Of a stretch of 64,000 nt of DNA, positions 43,307 to 63,609 are shown in pieces. The stretch lies in the NCBI RefSeq assembly GCF_008087665.1, contig NZ_CP042912.1, positions 5,270,001 to 5,334,000 of the forward strand, given 5' to 3'. Position numbers and translations under genes: made by a program. Below the pieces are notes generated by a model, which saw only the letters and a program-made list of their open reading frames with translations, had not been told where the DNA came from and did not search any database. This stretch comes from Mariniblastus fucicola. Its GTDB lineage: Bacteria > Planctomycetota > Planctomycetia > Pirellulales > Pirellulaceae. Position 1 is the first letter of the stretch, and the number at the start of each line of letters is the position of its first letter.

Positions 43307-43386
43307 GGCATCATGGCGTGTAATAAGTAAGTGGCGTCGCGCTTACACTGCTGTTTTCGAGCCAGAAGCCAATACACGTTTCCTTA

Positions 43387-44265
43387 GAAGGTGTTTTGAA
43401 ATTGCTCTGAGTTGAAAAAATCGCTACAGCCCCGTTTGCATTTAAACCGTAAACGGAAGGAGCCGTAGCGATGAGTATTGAGTATCCCAGCAGTCTCAGT
43501 GATGATCAATGGCGATTGCTTCGTCGTCTGATTCCGCCAGCAAAACTTCGCGGCCGCAAACGAATCGATCGGCGTCAAATTGTCGATGCGATATTGTATT
43601 GGTGTCGAACGGGCTGCCAGTGGCGGTTGCTTCCGGACTGCTTTCCGAATTGGAACACGGTTTATGGAGTTTATCGAGCTTGGCGTATTGATGGGACATG
43701 GCAACGCATTCACGATCGTCTTCGCGAAAAGGTACGCCGCAAAGAAGGCAGGAAGCCAACGCCAACAGCAGCCATCATTGATTCGCAAAGCATTCGCAGT
43801 GCTGAAGGAGGAGAATTACGCGGGTATGACGCGGCGAAACGAATTACCGGACGAAAGCGTCACATCCTGGTGGATACGTTGGGGCTTGTGATGGTCGTTG
43901 TTGTCCACTCGGCCGATCTACAAGACTACGAAGGTGCACATCTTGTTCTTGAAAACATCAGACAGAAGTTTCGTCGGCTTCGAGTCATCTTCGCGGACTC
44001 GATTTACGGGCGGGCTGATTTGCCGGAGTTCCTGAAGCAATGGTATCGTGTCATCTTGCAAACCGTTAAGCGTCCGGTCGAAGCCGAAGGGTTCGTTGTC
44101 TTACCCAAGCGATGGATCGTTGAACGGACTTTCGCATGGCTTGGAAAATTCAGAAGGCTCTCAAAGGACTATGAAAGACTGACTCAAAACAGCGAAACTG
44201 TCATACGAATCGCAATGATTCAATTCATGCTAAACAGGCTGGAAAAATAATTTTAAAACACCCTC
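43387..44265 (+). mobile_element. Insertion sequence, IS5-type family
   Basis: 879 bases. The terminal inverted repeats are imperfect: GAAGGTGTTTTGAAATTGCT at the left and the complement of a GAGGGTGTTTTAAAATTATT-type right end, 4 mismatches in 20. The flanking trinucleotides are TTA on the left and TGA on the right, so a perfect 3-bp target duplication is not seen. A single transposase frame fills the element and is undamaged. It lies between purF and the PEP-CTERM leader and does not disrupt any visible gene. Confidence 0.85.
43471..44250 (+). CDS. IS5-type transposase
   Basis: 259 residues. DDE catalytic residues are D104 (AAIIDSQSI), D176 (VIFADSIYG) and E218 (RWIVERTFAWLGKF), the last followed by the usual RRLSKDYE. 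The N-terminal helical part (LSDDQWRLLRRLIPP, VDAILYWCRTGCQWRLLP) binds the element ends by analogy with IS1031/IS427-type elements. There is no frameshift and no second frame. ATG at 43471 has AGGAG ~10 bases upstream. Confidence 0.93.
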   Translation: MSIEYPSSLSDDQWRLLRRLIPPAKLRGRKRIDRRQIVDAILYWCRTGCQWRLLPDCFPNWNTVYGVYRAWRIDGTWQRIHDRLREKVRRKEGRKPTPTAAIIDSQSIRSAEGGELRGYDAAKRITGRKRHILVDTLGLVMVVVVHSADLQDYEGAHLVLENIRQKFRRLRVIFADSIYGRADLPEFLKQWYRVILQTVKRPVEAEGFVVLPKRWIVERTFAWLGKFRRLSKDYERLTQNSETVIRIAMIQFMLNRLEK

Positions 44266-44391
44266 TGAAACGGATCATGTACATTTTGGCACATTCGTGA
44301 AATTGGCTGTTGCGGCCAGGCAGCGATGTAGCTTTAATCGATAACAGCGACAGGAATTCTGTTCGCTCTTTAAAATTTCAGATTACCGTCT

Positions 44392-44484
44392 CGCAGCAAG
44401 CATCCAGGGCATTTCGGCCAACGCCGAAGTATCTCGCCAGCCACGCAAGGTAATCCGCTGAATTCGTTCAGTGTTAATCCGTGG
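44392..44484 (+). ncRNA. Structured leader of the PEP-CTERM gene, copy A of a shared element
   Basis: Box CGCAGCAAGC (44392-44401), a hairpin with 8-bp stem (44411-44418 with 44423-44430, CAAC loop), box CGCCAGCCACG (44435-44445), then CCACG pairing with CGTGG (44480-44484) around a 7-bp hairpin with a TTCG loop (44456-44473). The AGGAG ribosome-binding site follows at 44492. A second copy with the same boxes and same helices but different stem bases lies at 45262. Family is unknown; it could be a riboswitch aptamer or protein-binding leader. Confidence 0.6.
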
Positions 44485-44504
44485 TATCTCCAGGAGTTTC
44501 CAAC

Positions 44505-45194
44505 ATGTCTGTATGTATGCGCGCCGCCGCGATTTTTGTTTTGTCCGTATCTGTTCTTTCAAGCTCAGCTTTCGCCGACGAAATCGGCTATTTCGCGGGT
44601 TCCGCCGAAGCCTCCGACGGCGATTTTGGCTGGGATGTGTTCTCCGGCGCGTGGTCTGACACGCACCAGTCCCAATTTGCTTCGGGCATCGGAACTGCGG
44701 AACTTGTGATCGGCGGTGGAGCACCAACAATGCCGCCTGGCGGAGTCACAGAAACCGGCGACATCTACACGCACGATGCCTCGAACCCAACGTTTGATTT
44801 CACTCTGACGGGGCTCGATTCGAGCGAAGCTTTCACCAGCGTTGTGCTGCAATTCGCAACCACCCAGACAACTCTCGACGCGTCCGCATTTGAACTTGGC
44901 GGCGCCGCGCCTGACGAGTTCATTTCGCTTGGTCAAGACGGTTCGGTTCCGTTCGGACAGACTTCATTTCCGTACAACTTCTACTGGGCAGAATGGATCG
45001 GCGTCGACAGCGCGACGACGCTCAACGCAAGTATCGACATCGGAAGTTTCCGTGTGATTGGTGGCGCCAAAGCAACCTACTACAACACTGATTCGGCGCT
45101 GAACGTCACCAACGTATCTGCGGTGCCCGAGCCAAGCGCAGGCGTTCTTTCAATTCTGGTCGCGCTATTCGCAGTCCGTCGTCGTCGCGACTGA
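44505..45194 (+). CDS. Exported PEP-CTERM protein, unknown function
   Basis: 229 residues from ATG 44505, which has AGGAG 8 bases upstream; the GTG at 44481 in the same frame lies inside the leader's last helix. Signal peptide (RAAAIFVLSVSVLSSSAFA), a beta-rich body (GYFAGSAEASDGDFGWDVFS, FDFTLTGLDSSEAFTSVVLQ), and a C-terminal AVPEPSAGVLSILVALFAVRRRR sorting signal. No catalytic motif is seen. Surface-anchored or shed after exosortase cleavage is expected; no exosortase gene is in the window. The leader RNA and the recent IS upstream are notable. Confidence 0.82.
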   Translation: MSVCMRAAAIFVLSVSVLSSSAFADEIGYFAGSAEASDGDFGWDVFSGAWSDTHQSQFASGIGTAELVIGGGAPTMPPGGVTETGDIYTHDASNPTFDFTLTGLDSSEAFTSVVLQFATTQTTLDASAFELGGAAPDEFISLGQDGSVPFGQTSFPYNFYWAEWIGVDSATTLNASIDIGSFRVIGGAKATYYNTDSALNVTNVSAVPEPSAGVLSILVALFAVRRRRD

Positions 45195-45261
45195 ATTCTA
45201 AATGGTCATTCTTTAGCGAGAGGCAAATTCTTTCGCCAAGTTTTAGCTTTGACTTTCTTCC

Positions 45262-45368
45262 CGCAGCAAGCCAGCTCCGTCGTCGACGGATACGCCAGCC
45301 ACGTACGGAAGTCGCCTGGATCGATCGGTTCGATCCGGTTTACGTGGAGTCAGCCCAACGTGGCTGAC
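45262..45368 (+). ncRNA. Structured leader of the DUF1559 gene, copy B of the shared element
   Basis: Box CGCAGCAAGC (45262-45271), hairpin TCCGT/ACGGA (45276-45290), box CGCCAGCCACG (45293-45303), then CCACGT pairing with ACGTGG (45342-45347) around an 8-bp hairpin CTGGATCG/CGATCCGG (45316-45338). A third hairpin GTCAGCC/GGCTGAC (45349-45368) precedes the AGGAAAGG ribosome-binding site. The stems share pairing but not sequence with copy A at 44392, which is what a conserved RNA structure would give. Confidence 0.6.
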
Positions 45369-45382
45369 AGGAAAGGAAAACG

Positions 45383-46312
45383 ATGAATTTTACATGGAAT
45401 CGCCGCAAGGCATTTACGCTTGTTGAACTGTTGGTCGTGATTGCGATCATCGGTATTCTGATCGGAATGTTGTTGCCTGCCGTGCAGCAAGTTCGTGAAG
45501 CAGCTCGCAGAACATCTTGCATGAACAACATGCGCCAGATCTCACTGGCGACGCTGAACTTCGAAAGCGCCCACATGGAGCTTCCGTTTGCAACGCAGGA
45601 CCGAATGCCAGGCGATGATAGCGATACCTGGTCCACTGGATTTATCCAGATTATGCCGTTTCTGGAAAGGGACGACATCGCCAGTCGCTGGAACAAAAAT
45701 GAGCCTCGGGACAGCAACAACGACGACGATGGAGACGGTTTCACCAACGCCATGCTGACTCAAATGAAAATCGCGGCCTACACCTGTCCGTCAATGACGG
45801 AGCCCAACGGCGAACTCGTGGACAACCGGGCTCCCAGCAGCTATCTGTTTTCTGCCGGCACGATGGACACCGCGCTGCTGCACTATGCGATATATTACGG
45901 AATCTCGGAGCCAGTTTACGATGGCGCGATCATCCCGACTCGCAACGACGAAAACAACACGTCAAGCCCGAACTACCGTGTTGAAACTACGATGAGCACT
46001 CTATCCGATGGCTCGTCGAACACTTTCATGATCGGCGAAACTGACTTCATGCCTCGCGGTGTGCCGTCGACCGAATACGGAGCCGTTTGGGCTTACGGCT
46101 ACATCGGTTACTCATGGGGAACGACCTATCATCCGTTCAACAAACATGACAACACGAACGCCGTTTACGGAGCGTTCCGCAGCGAGCACCCTGGTGGTGC
46201 GAGCTTCGGCCGCTGCGATGGCTCGGTTGCGTTTTTGTCGGATGGAATCGTTCAGGAAACCTACGACAGCCTCGCGACTCGTGCGGGTGGTGAAGTCGTG
46301 GATCAGTTCTAA
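45383..46312 (+). CDS. DUF1559 prepilin-like protein
   Basis: 309 residues. A type IV prepilin-type N-terminus ([20 protein letters not shown]) with a charged leader before the cleavage site is followed by [20 protein letters not shown] and [16 protein letters not shown], the DUF1559 pattern highly expanded in planctomycetes. The beta-rich C-terminal half ends [23 protein letters not shown]-like (here [18 protein letters not shown]). It is probably exported by a type II/IV pilus-like system and its function is unknown. A hairpin and a small lipoprotein gene follow, a recurrent layout in this phylum. Confidence 0.9.
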
Positions 46313-46380: not shown

Positions 46381-46650
46381 ATGAGATACCTGATTACGGT
46401 GTTGGCGATCACGACATTGACGATTGCCGCTGGCTGCAGTCCACAGCCGCAAACTGCCACCATCGACCCCGACGAGCCTTTGACGGTCGAAGTCTGGACC
46501 GAGCTCGACATTGGACAGAAATATGAACTTGAAACTCTGGAATGGCTACGCGAGAGCAATCCAAAGCTCAAAGGTGAACGCCAATGGACAAAGTTCATGA
46601 AAGAAGTCGTCGTTCCGCAGCGACGAAAAGACATTCCAACTGACTACTAA
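46381..46650 (+). CDS. Small lipoprotein paired with the DUF1559 gene
   Basis: 89 residues from ATG 46381, with TGGAG upstream (an earlier in-frame start at 46363 lies in the hairpin). Lipobox: YLITVLAITTLTIAAGC, Cys ~19. The mature part is charged, with a helical end (LETLEWLRESNPKLKGERQW, VVVPQRRKDIP). Small lipoproteins directly after DUF1559 genes are a frequent planctomycete pair; the function is not known, and the shared transcript is inference. Confidence 0.75.
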   Translation: MRYLITVLAITTLTIAAGCSPQPQTATIDPDEPLTVEVWTELDIGQKYELETLEWLRESNPKLKGERQWTKFMKEVVVPQRRKDIPTDY

Positions 46651-46704: not shown

Positions 46705-48387
46705 ATGACAATCTTAAAACGATCCTGCTTGTTGATTGCCGCAGCTCTCTTCGCCAGCCTCGCGTTGGCGGAATCCGCTCACGCTCACTTTTTGTATGTC
46801 TATTCCGAAGACGGAAAAGTCAAAATCGTTTTCGGTGAAGATACCGATCCCGATCAGGCCCAGTTTCTCGCTGGCCTGAAAGACATGCAGGCCTTCACCA
46901 CGGTTGACGGTGAAACGAAAGAAATTGAATTCGAGAAAGTCGTTGAAGGCGATGACGGCTGGTTCGAAGTCCCGCTGGATAGCGTTGGCAATACGGTCGA
47001 CATCAGCTGCCCTTACGGCGTTTTTGGCCGCGGTGACAAGTCCATGCATTTGGACTATAGCGCGAAACTGGTTCGCTACACTGCCGGCGATTCTGTCGCC
47101 AAACCCAGCAAAAAACTGGCTCTGGACCTCGTTCCGCAGTTCACGCCCGATGGGCTGAAAGTAGCGGCGTACTTCAAAGGCATGCCGCTTCCCAACGCAG
47201 AAATTTCACTCGTTCGCGTCGAAACGGACTCGCTCGACACAACAACTGACGAAACCGGCAACGTTGTGCTGGCTCCAACTACGCGATACCTGGTCCGCGG
47301 AAAACACATTCTCGAAGAGAGCGGAGAAGTCGACGGCAAGAAGTTTTCTGAGAAACGTTTCTACTGCACGATGGTGCTGGACGTTAACAGCACGCCTGCC
47401 GCGCCCGAAAGCACCACGGTCAGCACTCCAGCGACCGAAGCCGCGCCCGTTTCACTGGAAAAAGTTGACGCTGGATTCGCTGATTTCCCTCGTGGCATGA
47501 CCAGCTTTGGTGCCACCGTGGTCGACAACAATGTTTACGTGATCGGCGGCAAGTCCGGACGTGCTCACTCGTACGCCAAGTCTTACCAAAATCGGGACGT
47601 GTTCTGCTTGAGCCTTTCTGGCAACGACAAGCAATGGAAGTCCGTCGGTGAAAATCTAGGCTTGCAAGGTTTGGCGATCGTCGGGCACAAAGGCAAAGTC
47701 TACCGCATCGGTGGCTTGGAAGCTCGTAACGCCGAAGGCGAAGATCACGATCTGAAATCCATCTCGGAAGTCCTTGAATTCGATCCGGCGACCCAATCCT
47801 GGAATGAGATGCCTTCTCTACCCGAAGGTCGTTCTTCGTTCGACGCCTGTGTCGCTGATGGAAAGATCTACGTCGTCGGTGGATGGACGATGAATGGCGA
47901 AGAGGAAACCGTTTGGGCCGAAGACATGTTGGTGTTCGACCTTTCCAAACCGGATGGAGAGTGGAGCCGAATCGAAGCTCCGTTCCGCGCCCGAGCCCTC
48001 GCAGTTCGCGAGTTTGACGGAAAACTGATCGTCATCGGTGGCATCGAGGAAGGTGCTGGGACGACTAACGCAGTTCACTTCTACGATCTGACCAGCGGTC
48101 AATGGAGCGAAGGCCCTGAAGTTCCGACCGACGGCGGCATCAAGTCGTTCGGCTGTTCTGCGGTTGCTGTCGACGGTAACTTTCTGATCAGCATTTACGA
48201 TGGCCAGGTGCTGCGATTGAGCGATGACGCTACGGCGTGGCAGCGAGTTCACCAGTTGGACGAAGGTCGCTTTTTCCACCAGATGCTGCCCGTTGGCGAT
48301 TCTCAATTCGCACTCGTCGGCGGTTCGCATATGGAAGACGGCAGCCGGATGGAAGTCGAAGTTTTCGAAGTCGTCGCTGAAAACTAA
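46705..48387 (+). CDS. Exported DUF4198-like and kelch-repeat protein
   Basis: 560 residues. A signal peptide (LIAAALFASLALAESAHA) leads to a His at the mature N-terminus and a DUF4198-type beta region (HFLYVYSEDGKVKIVFGED, VDISCPYGVFGRG, GLKVAAYFKGMPLPNAEI) up to about residue 230. The next ~300 residues are kelch-type blades (VYVIGGKSGRAH, KVYRIGGLEA, KIYVVGGWTMNGEE, KLIVIGGIEEGAG), forming a propeller. DUF4198 domains are often linked to metal uptake, but no metal site is obvious here. It is probably periplasmic or surface-located. Confidence 0.8.
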   Translation: MTILKRSCLLIAAALFASLALAESAHAHFLYVYSEDGKVKIVFGEDTDPDQAQFLAGLKDMQAFTTVDGETKEIEFEKVVEGDDGWFEVPLDSVGNTVDISCPYGVFGRGDKSMHLDYSAKLVRYTAGDSVAKPSKKLALDLVPQFTPDGLKVAAYFKGMPLPNAEISLVRVETDSLDTTTDETGNVVLAPTTRYLVRGKHILEESGEVDGKKFSEKRFYCTMVLDVNSTPAAPESTTVSTPATEAAPVSLEKVDAGFADFPRGMTSFGATVVDNNVYVIGGKSGRAHSYAKSYQNRDVFCLSLSGNDKQWKSVGENLGLQGLAIVGHKGKVYRIGGLEARNAEGEDHDLKSISEVLEFDPATQSWNEMPSLPEGRSSFDACVADGKIYVVGGWTMNGEEETVWAEDMLVFDLSKPDGEWSRIEAPFRARALAVREFDGKLIVIGGIEEGAGTTNAVHFYDLTSGQWSEGPEVPTDGGIKSFGCSAVAVDGNFLISIYDGQVLRLSDDATAWQRVHQLDEGRFFHQMLPVGDSQFALVGGSHMEDGSRMEVEVFEVVAEN

Positions 48388-63525: not shown

Positions 63526-63609
63526 GCGGATGTGGCGGAATTGGCAGACGCGCTGGCTTCAGGTGCCAGTGGGGGCAACCCCGTGGAGGTTCAAATCCTC
63601 TCATCCGCA
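63526..63609 (+). tRNA. tRNA-Leu (anticodon CAG)
   Basis: 84 bases. Acceptor stem GCGGATG pairs with CATCCGC, discriminator A at 63609, and no CCA is encoded. The anticodon arm is CTGGC-TTCAGGT-GCCAG, giving anticodon CAG, which reads CUG. A long variable arm (GTGGGGGCAACCCCGT) follows, as expected for Leu, and the T arm is GAGG-TTCAAAT-CCTC. The D arm has the usual GCGGAATTGGCAGACGC. Confidence 0.96.

Follow-up and report, generated by a model that had tools for sequence, protein, structure and literature searches.

Introduction

The c-di-GMP-I (GEMM-I) riboswitch is a leader RNA located before surface-protein genes, and the NiCo (czcD) and manganese yybP-ykoY riboswitches are leader RNAs of metal-transport genes. 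Responses to iron or Fur are reported for DUF2271 and DUF4198 genes of Caulobacter and Alteromonas, and repression by Fur for PepSY-like clusters (PMC3751524, PMC7190382, PMC8238504). The window analysed here is a 64,000-nucleotide stretch of the Mariniblastus fucicola genome (contig NZ_CP042912.1, positions 5,270,001 to 5,334,000) in which two similar leaders precede a PEP-CTERM protein gene and a DUF1559 gene. It is rather probable that these leaders belong to a cis-acting leader RNA family of planctomycete iron-acquisition operons, often with a Fur-type palindrome upstream, and with an iron-signalled translation switch.

Results

Two related leaders in the window

A sequence-only reading of this DNA had described two boxes shared by both leaders, a hairpin between them, a long-range helix, an extra hairpin in the second copy and unrelated downstream genes. 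All of these were recovered, the boxes by direct reading and script, and a helix enclosing both boxes (P1) was added here. The features are as follows.

44381–44387 (+): copy 1, P1 5′ arm GATTACC (script re-check; P1 permutation test)
44392–44401 (+): copy 1, box 1 CGCAGCAAGC (direct reading; RNAalifold consensus)
44411–44430 (+): copy 1, P2 hairpin of 8 bp with a 4-nt loop, arms 44411–44418 and 44423–44430 (folding, script)
44436–44445 (+): copy 1, box 2 GCCAGCCACG (direct reading, script)
44449–44455 (+): copy 1, P1 3′ arm GGTAATC (permutation test, script)
44456–44473 (+): copy 1, P4 hairpin (folding, script)
44480–44484 (+): copy 1, CGTGG, P3 partner of CCACG in box 2 (44441–44445; shuffle p 0.19 for this leader)
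44492–44496 (+): copy 1, likely Shine-Dalgarno AGGAG (sequence)
44505–45194 (+): copy 1 target, encoding a PEP-CTERM protein (TIGR02595, 17.6 bits, cut-off 16, E 0.005)
45251–45257 (+): copy 2, P1 5′ arm GACTTTC (permutation test, script)
45262–45271 (+): copy 2, box 1 CGCAGCAAGC (script)
45276–45290 (+): copy 2, P2 hairpin, arms 45276–45281 and 45285–45290 (folding, script)
45294–45303 (+): copy 2, box 2 GCCAGCCACG (script)
45307–45313 (+): copy 2, P1 3′ arm GGAAGTC (permutation test, script)
45318–45336 (+): copy 2, P4 hairpin (folding, script)
45341–45347 (+): copy 2, TACGTGG, 7-nt P3 partner of CCACGTA (45299–45305; script)
45349–45368 (+): copy 2, extra hairpin 5′ of the ribosome site, arms 45349–45355 and 45362–45368 (shuffle p 0.01 for box 2 pairing in this leader, script)
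45383–46312 (+): copy 2 target, a DUF1559 (PF07596) gene whose product has a prepilin-type N terminus (Pfam)
46381–46650 (+): small lipoprotein-like gene, next in an operon-like row (no NCBIfam match)
46705–48387 (+): Kelch protein gene; its DUF4198 match is weak, at 17.1 bits below the cut-off of 34

Copy 1 spans 44381–44504 and copy 2 spans 45251–45382, and the boxes and inner hairpin are common to both. Box 2 is the core of a longer shared string, CGCCAGCCACG, at 44435–44445 and 45293–45303. The copy 1 target had no Pfam match. Each box has a single additional exact copy in the window (32107 and 60267, minus strand), and these have the appearance of chance. The joint pattern GCAGCAAG-N15..45-CGCCAGCC was found at the two window sites only in the whole 6,570,840-base (6.57-Mb) genome, the reversed control of the same pattern gave 0 matches genome-wide, and a looser box pattern added two further genome sites. 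Folding of the leaders was modestly stronger than that of dinucleotide shuffles (z of −2.20 and −2.10; equalled by 7/200 and 8/200 shuffles). Within the extra hairpin of copy 2, ACGTGGCTG at 45358–45366 is a perfect 9-nt complement of box 2 (45296–45304) and could act as a competitor of P3.

With Rfam 15 at the gathering score, the sole match in the window was a tRNA (63526–63609), and 20 loci with relatives gave none. Over 44300–45400 nothing was matched at E values up to 10. The faint resemblance to c-di-GMP-I aptamers that had been mentioned, and left unclaimed, in the sequence-only reading thus has no counterpart in Rfam, and membership of this or another Rfam family was rejected on that ground.

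Distribution of the family

A covariance model was built from 24 copies (20 fetched loci and the window; alignment A2). Such a search had been proposed in the sequence-only reading, and it returned many matches, mostly before DUF1559-like genes and with compensatory changes in P1 and P2. The host genome contains four strong matches, namely the window pair, C1:1663004-1663092 and C1:6095390-6095476; a fifth candidate, C1:5083130 (L058, E 0.001), was doubtful, and was dropped and excluded from the covariation test. At E ≤ 1e-4, 97 matches were found in 60/241 genomes and 13/68 genera of the host family. Sampled genomes of the class gave matches in 20/397 (8 from the host family and 12 from a second family, the latter with 14 matches), and a second model run on 392 sampled genomes of the phylum gave matches in 9, all within the two families; these searches used stricter filters by which weak matches are lost. 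A looser pattern matched 123 of 199 family genomes, many of them by chance according to the reversed control, and a subset shared extra letters and a hairpin by eye. The strongest copies reach 79.3 bits and the weakest accepted member 28.5 bits. Tandem copies occur in five loci (L037, L117, L148, L128 and L149). These, together with window copy 2, lie between genes of the same strand, a location suited to action at the RNA level. A seemingly degenerate third copy with a palindrome was also seen in genome G130 before another DUF1559 gene (L249, approximately 1500–1560; G130:C1:2824513).

Records with the exact pattern include Mariniblastus, Rhodopirellula, Roseiconus, Roseimaritima, Stieleria and Aporhodopirellula. 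Eighteen of the 46 exact-pattern records fall beyond the group of the two families (17 outside the phylum and one in Phycisphaerales). They were judged to be chance matches because they score 15.4–31.2 bits and lie within open frames of 130–2270 aa, and because their P1 averages 9.1, close to the permuted mean (8.7); for three records with frames of less than 200 aa this is less sure. Since the family was found via patterns containing the boxes, the conservation of the boxes is biased.

Covariation and consensus structure

Covariation was assessed with 113 copies, comprising 99 of the 100 hits (L058 removed) and the 14 second-family copies, with 63 of the 113 belonging to a single cluster. The arms of P1 paired better with their own partners than with permuted arms across all 113 copies (z 9.5) and when each of the 32 clusters was represented once (z 4.6, with 0/20000 permutations reaching the observed value). 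P2 gave a similar result with 27 cluster representatives (z −8.2, 0/20000). In a set of 86 copies selected on their 3′ letters, 279/344 inner P1 cells were paired, and the inner types included TCGA/TCGA (24), CCGA/TCGG (18), CTGA/TCAG (4) and CTGG/CCAG (2). In a 100-row model-fitted alignment, 68.3% of cells were paired compared to 56.1% in shuffles (0/500), and the covariation score was 0.313 compared to 0.176 (0/500). Three of five measures on this alignment exceeded all 500 shuffles and two did not (128/500 and 59/500). A previous test of P1 without constraints, run on 99 copies, pointed the same way on average (−6.69 for own arms and −5.73 for permuted arms, sd 0.20), with just 13/99 copies individually within the best 5%. 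P1 is absent in some cluster representatives, such as L163 and the second copy of L149.

RNAalifold applied to the 24 sequences of A2 showed that box 1 can pair with box 2 through G+C dinucleotide steps interrupted by C/A and A/C mismatches in tandem; no change was present in these pairs, and P1 and P2 were not recovered in that consensus. The compensatory change claimed in the sequence-only reading therefore stands for P2 and for P1, which that reading had not seen, but not for the CCACG/CGTGG helix to which it had also been assigned, where box 2 is nearly invariant and covariation was accordingly not shown. A conserved, folded leader RNA family whose helices carry compensatory change is well supported by these results.

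Target genes

Pfam was run on the DUF1559 gene of the window, and other DUF1559-like targets were called by N-terminal motif. By this motif, the same-strand downstream gene is DUF1559-like for 70/100 hits, and 62 of these 70 genes start 42–94 nt past the model match. With a wider interval of 20–160 nt, DUF1559-like starts were found for 66/100 hits, other starts for 10/100 (3 DUF4198-like, 2 PEP-CTERM-like and 5 other) and none for 24/100, the last partly a result of mis-called starts; apparent DUF1559 genes with such starts were found in L102, L103, L108, L119, L154 and L160. The RNA thus has a fixed location before a start codon.

Targets of other kinds recur. Short secreted PEP-CTERM-like proteins follow the leader in L053, L148 and L159 besides window copy 1, DUF4198-like proteins in L047, L106, L116, L118 and L125, and small Cys/Lys-rich proteins in L035 (host genome), L124, L147, L158, the first copy of L053 and perhaps L145. 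In the first five of these loci the small Cys/Lys-rich proteins begin MKTLCK..., carry CxxC and are encoded directly behind the leader. ZnuA (PF01297) with an adjoining ABC ATPase is the target in L039, and ZnuA is the second gene in L147, next to the small protein. TPR proteins are targets in L139 and, by resemblance, in L143. No clear intact target was found in L058, L092, L107, L120 and L155. Two gene rows were repeatedly observed: DUF1559, small lipoprotein and DUF4198/Kelch (the window, L046 and L172 of the second family), and DUF1559, PepSY, DUF2271 and DUF4198 (L044 by Pfam, with PF16357, PF10029 and PF10670 for the last three; others, such as L111, by eye). Only a few DUF1559 match places lie directly behind the RNA, 2/56 in the host genome and 2/77 in the relative G130.

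Upstream palindrome and probable link to iron

Just upstream of many copies lies the palindrome TTGAGA-N5-TCTCAA. It scored at least 10/12 positions in 64/113 copies (0.28% in mononucleotide shuffles) and at least 9/12 in 85/113 (3.0% in the same shuffles); 49/113 copies scored below 10/12, 28 of them below 9. By group, at least 10/12 was reached by 51/99 host-family and 13/14 second-family copies. A 22-letter operator consensus (58/100 at ≥ 16) was superseded by this score. With at most one mismatch, a longer form of the palindrome occurred at two sites in G130, both beside an RNA copy, and at three sites in G006, two of them beside a copy. A palindrome match was also seen inside a CRISPR-array-like region of G037 (C2, approximately 200 kb; L233 and L242), where one short unit is repeated in translated frames.

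In three of four genomes (G037, G130 and G304), the sole palindrome of at least 10/12 in the feoAB locus lies 11, 14 and 44 nt before feoA, respectively, which makes it a candidate Fur box. The operons of the family thus appear to share a palindromic operator with the known iron gene feoA. The palindrome is probably a Fur box with Fur as its putative binder, and the iron link of the leader family, read from sequence, appears strong by homology. The feoAB locus of the host genome has no palindrome of at least 10/12, and the four host copies score 6, 7, 6 and 8 of 12, so that iron control in the host rests on homology. Directly upstream of copy 1 there is an IS4/5-type transposase gene (43471–44250) in an element (43386–44266) with 18-nt inverted repeats (43386–43403 and 44249–44266); its insertion may have separated copy 1 from its promoter or removed the promoter there.

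Pairing of box 2 near the start codon

Pairing of box 2 with the region before the start was assessed in the 75 leaders, out of 100 hits, whose start call was usable. Against shuffles, p ≤ 0.05 was obtained for 21/75 and p ≤ 0.2 for 45/75. Against random windows of the same locus, the corresponding counts were 9/75 and 34/75, a weak signal (Fisher p 0.03 over 19 cluster medians). Nearest-neighbour energies in 64 leaders placed the box 1–box 2 state at a mean of 5.7 kcal/mol above the optimum and the box 2–downstream state at 0.09 kcal/mol, a gap implying that a ligand, a protein or non-canonical pairs would be needed for the former. Predicted openness before the start codon in the 64 leaders barely differed between the two states (0.38 and 0.34, respectively). 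Six close relatives (L046, L048, L080, L081, L086 and L165) gave 0.45 and 0.18, and the other GGCTGGAG leaders showed no such difference or the reverse. For general masking of the Shine-Dalgarno sequence the outcome was mixed, with partial support from the shuffles, a weak signal against random windows and no support from mean openness. A pseudoknot, with the box 2–CGTGG helix formed across P1, was rejected as the only reading, as RNAalifold shows box 1 to be an alternative partner; the pairings of box 2 were consequently treated as alternatives.

Discussion

The sequence-only reading had proposed a cis-regulatory RNA that co-controls envelope proteins. A conserved leader RNA is borne out, but iron or metal acquisition describes its targets better than does a general envelope role, given the palindrome in common with feoAB and the PepSY/DUF2271/DUF4198 and ZnuA genes of the operons; moreover, few DUF1559 genes lie behind the RNA. 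In the mechanism proposed here, the Fur-type palindrome found upstream of more than half of the copies would set transcription, and the message would begin with the leader RNA. The leader would fold in the order P1, two near-invariant facing boxes and P2, and box 2 (GCCAGCCACG) would have two alternative partners, box 1 and a segment (CGTGG, GCTGG or GGCTGGAG) just 5′ of the Shine-Dalgarno sequence, pairing with the latter being the presumed low-translation state. A signal of iron state would shift this balance and thereby alter translation of the next gene, atop control by Fur. The switch itself has weak to moderate support, and we infer that it acts on translation and responds to a signal related to iron. 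In a more specific and rather unlikely form of this mechanism, the RNA would itself be a dedicated sensor of iron status in series with Fur, responding to ferrous iron, haem, an iron chelate or, via tandem A-C pairs, iron-linked pH. The operator would set transcription, and the tandem C/A loops of the box 1–box 2 rod would sense iron, free or trap box 2 and so set translation.

The energy gap of the box 1–box 2 state could also be paid by a protein, and a pair of short, nearly invariant boxes flanked by variable helices is consistent with a protein-binding site. A leader bound by an RNA-binding regulator or an apo iron-sulfur protein, in place of a small-molecule aptamer, with the internal loops of the boxes controlling translation or stability, is a minority reading that nevertheless deserves serious weight. 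The near-invariance of box 2 within iron-related leaders would also suit the target of a trans-acting small RNA, for example one regulated by Fur, with P1 and P2 merely presenting the site; joint conservation of box 1, box 2, P1 and P2 across two families argues against this, and we regard it as improbable.

Inverted repeats can be protein sites in DNA and the palindrome adjoins 64/113 copies, so that the whole element might be read as an operator or another double-stranded signal. That reading is very improbable given the covariation of P1 and P2, the narrow spacing to the start in 62/70 DUF1559-like targets and the recurrence of copies between same-strand genes. Chance resemblance, or a repeat spread by an IS element, finds some encouragement in the transposase gene and its inverted repeats immediately before copy 1 and in exact-pattern matches outside the group whose best score of 31.2 bits exceeds that of the weakest accepted member (28.5 bits). 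Hardly any credence can be given to it, as strong copies (up to 79.3 bits) occur in many genera ahead of similar genes, the host genome has only four copies and the helices covary.

The iron-linked leader reading is preferred. Its value lies in the addition of a covarying leader RNA family without a match in Rfam 15, and in a testable role, iron acquisition, for a small fraction of the numerous functionally uncharacterised DUF1559 genes of planctomycetes. The family is also a concrete candidate for regulation at the RNA level on top of Fur, and raises the question of an iron-sensing riboswitch.

Comparison with known systems

The leaders resemble c-di-GMP-I (GEMM-I) in preceding surface-protein genes, and differ in that the window leaders have no Rfam match. 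They are similarly like the NiCo and yybP-ykoY riboswitches as leaders of metal-transport genes, and are distinguished from them by the lack of an Rfam match in the window or the 20 loci. A literature search at the level of titles and abstract openings returned none describing the present leader RNA. The covarying family is new relative to Rfam 15 and is possibly identical to the 2010 candidate Rhodopirellula-1, as judged by its table row alone (Weinberg 2010, PMC2864571). That row carries a "y" in the second column, taken to denote cis-regulatory, and lists Planctomycetes, as for the family here; it also lists Proteobacteria, where the present exact-pattern matches look like chance. Proteobacterial Fur-controlled PepSY/DUF2271/DUF4198 iron clusters share protein families, Fur and iron limitation with the planctomycete operons (PMC3751524, PMC7190382, PMC8238504). 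As far as the parts of those papers considered here go, which mention neither feature, the planctomycete operons differ in being headed by a DUF1559 gene and a structured RNA leader.
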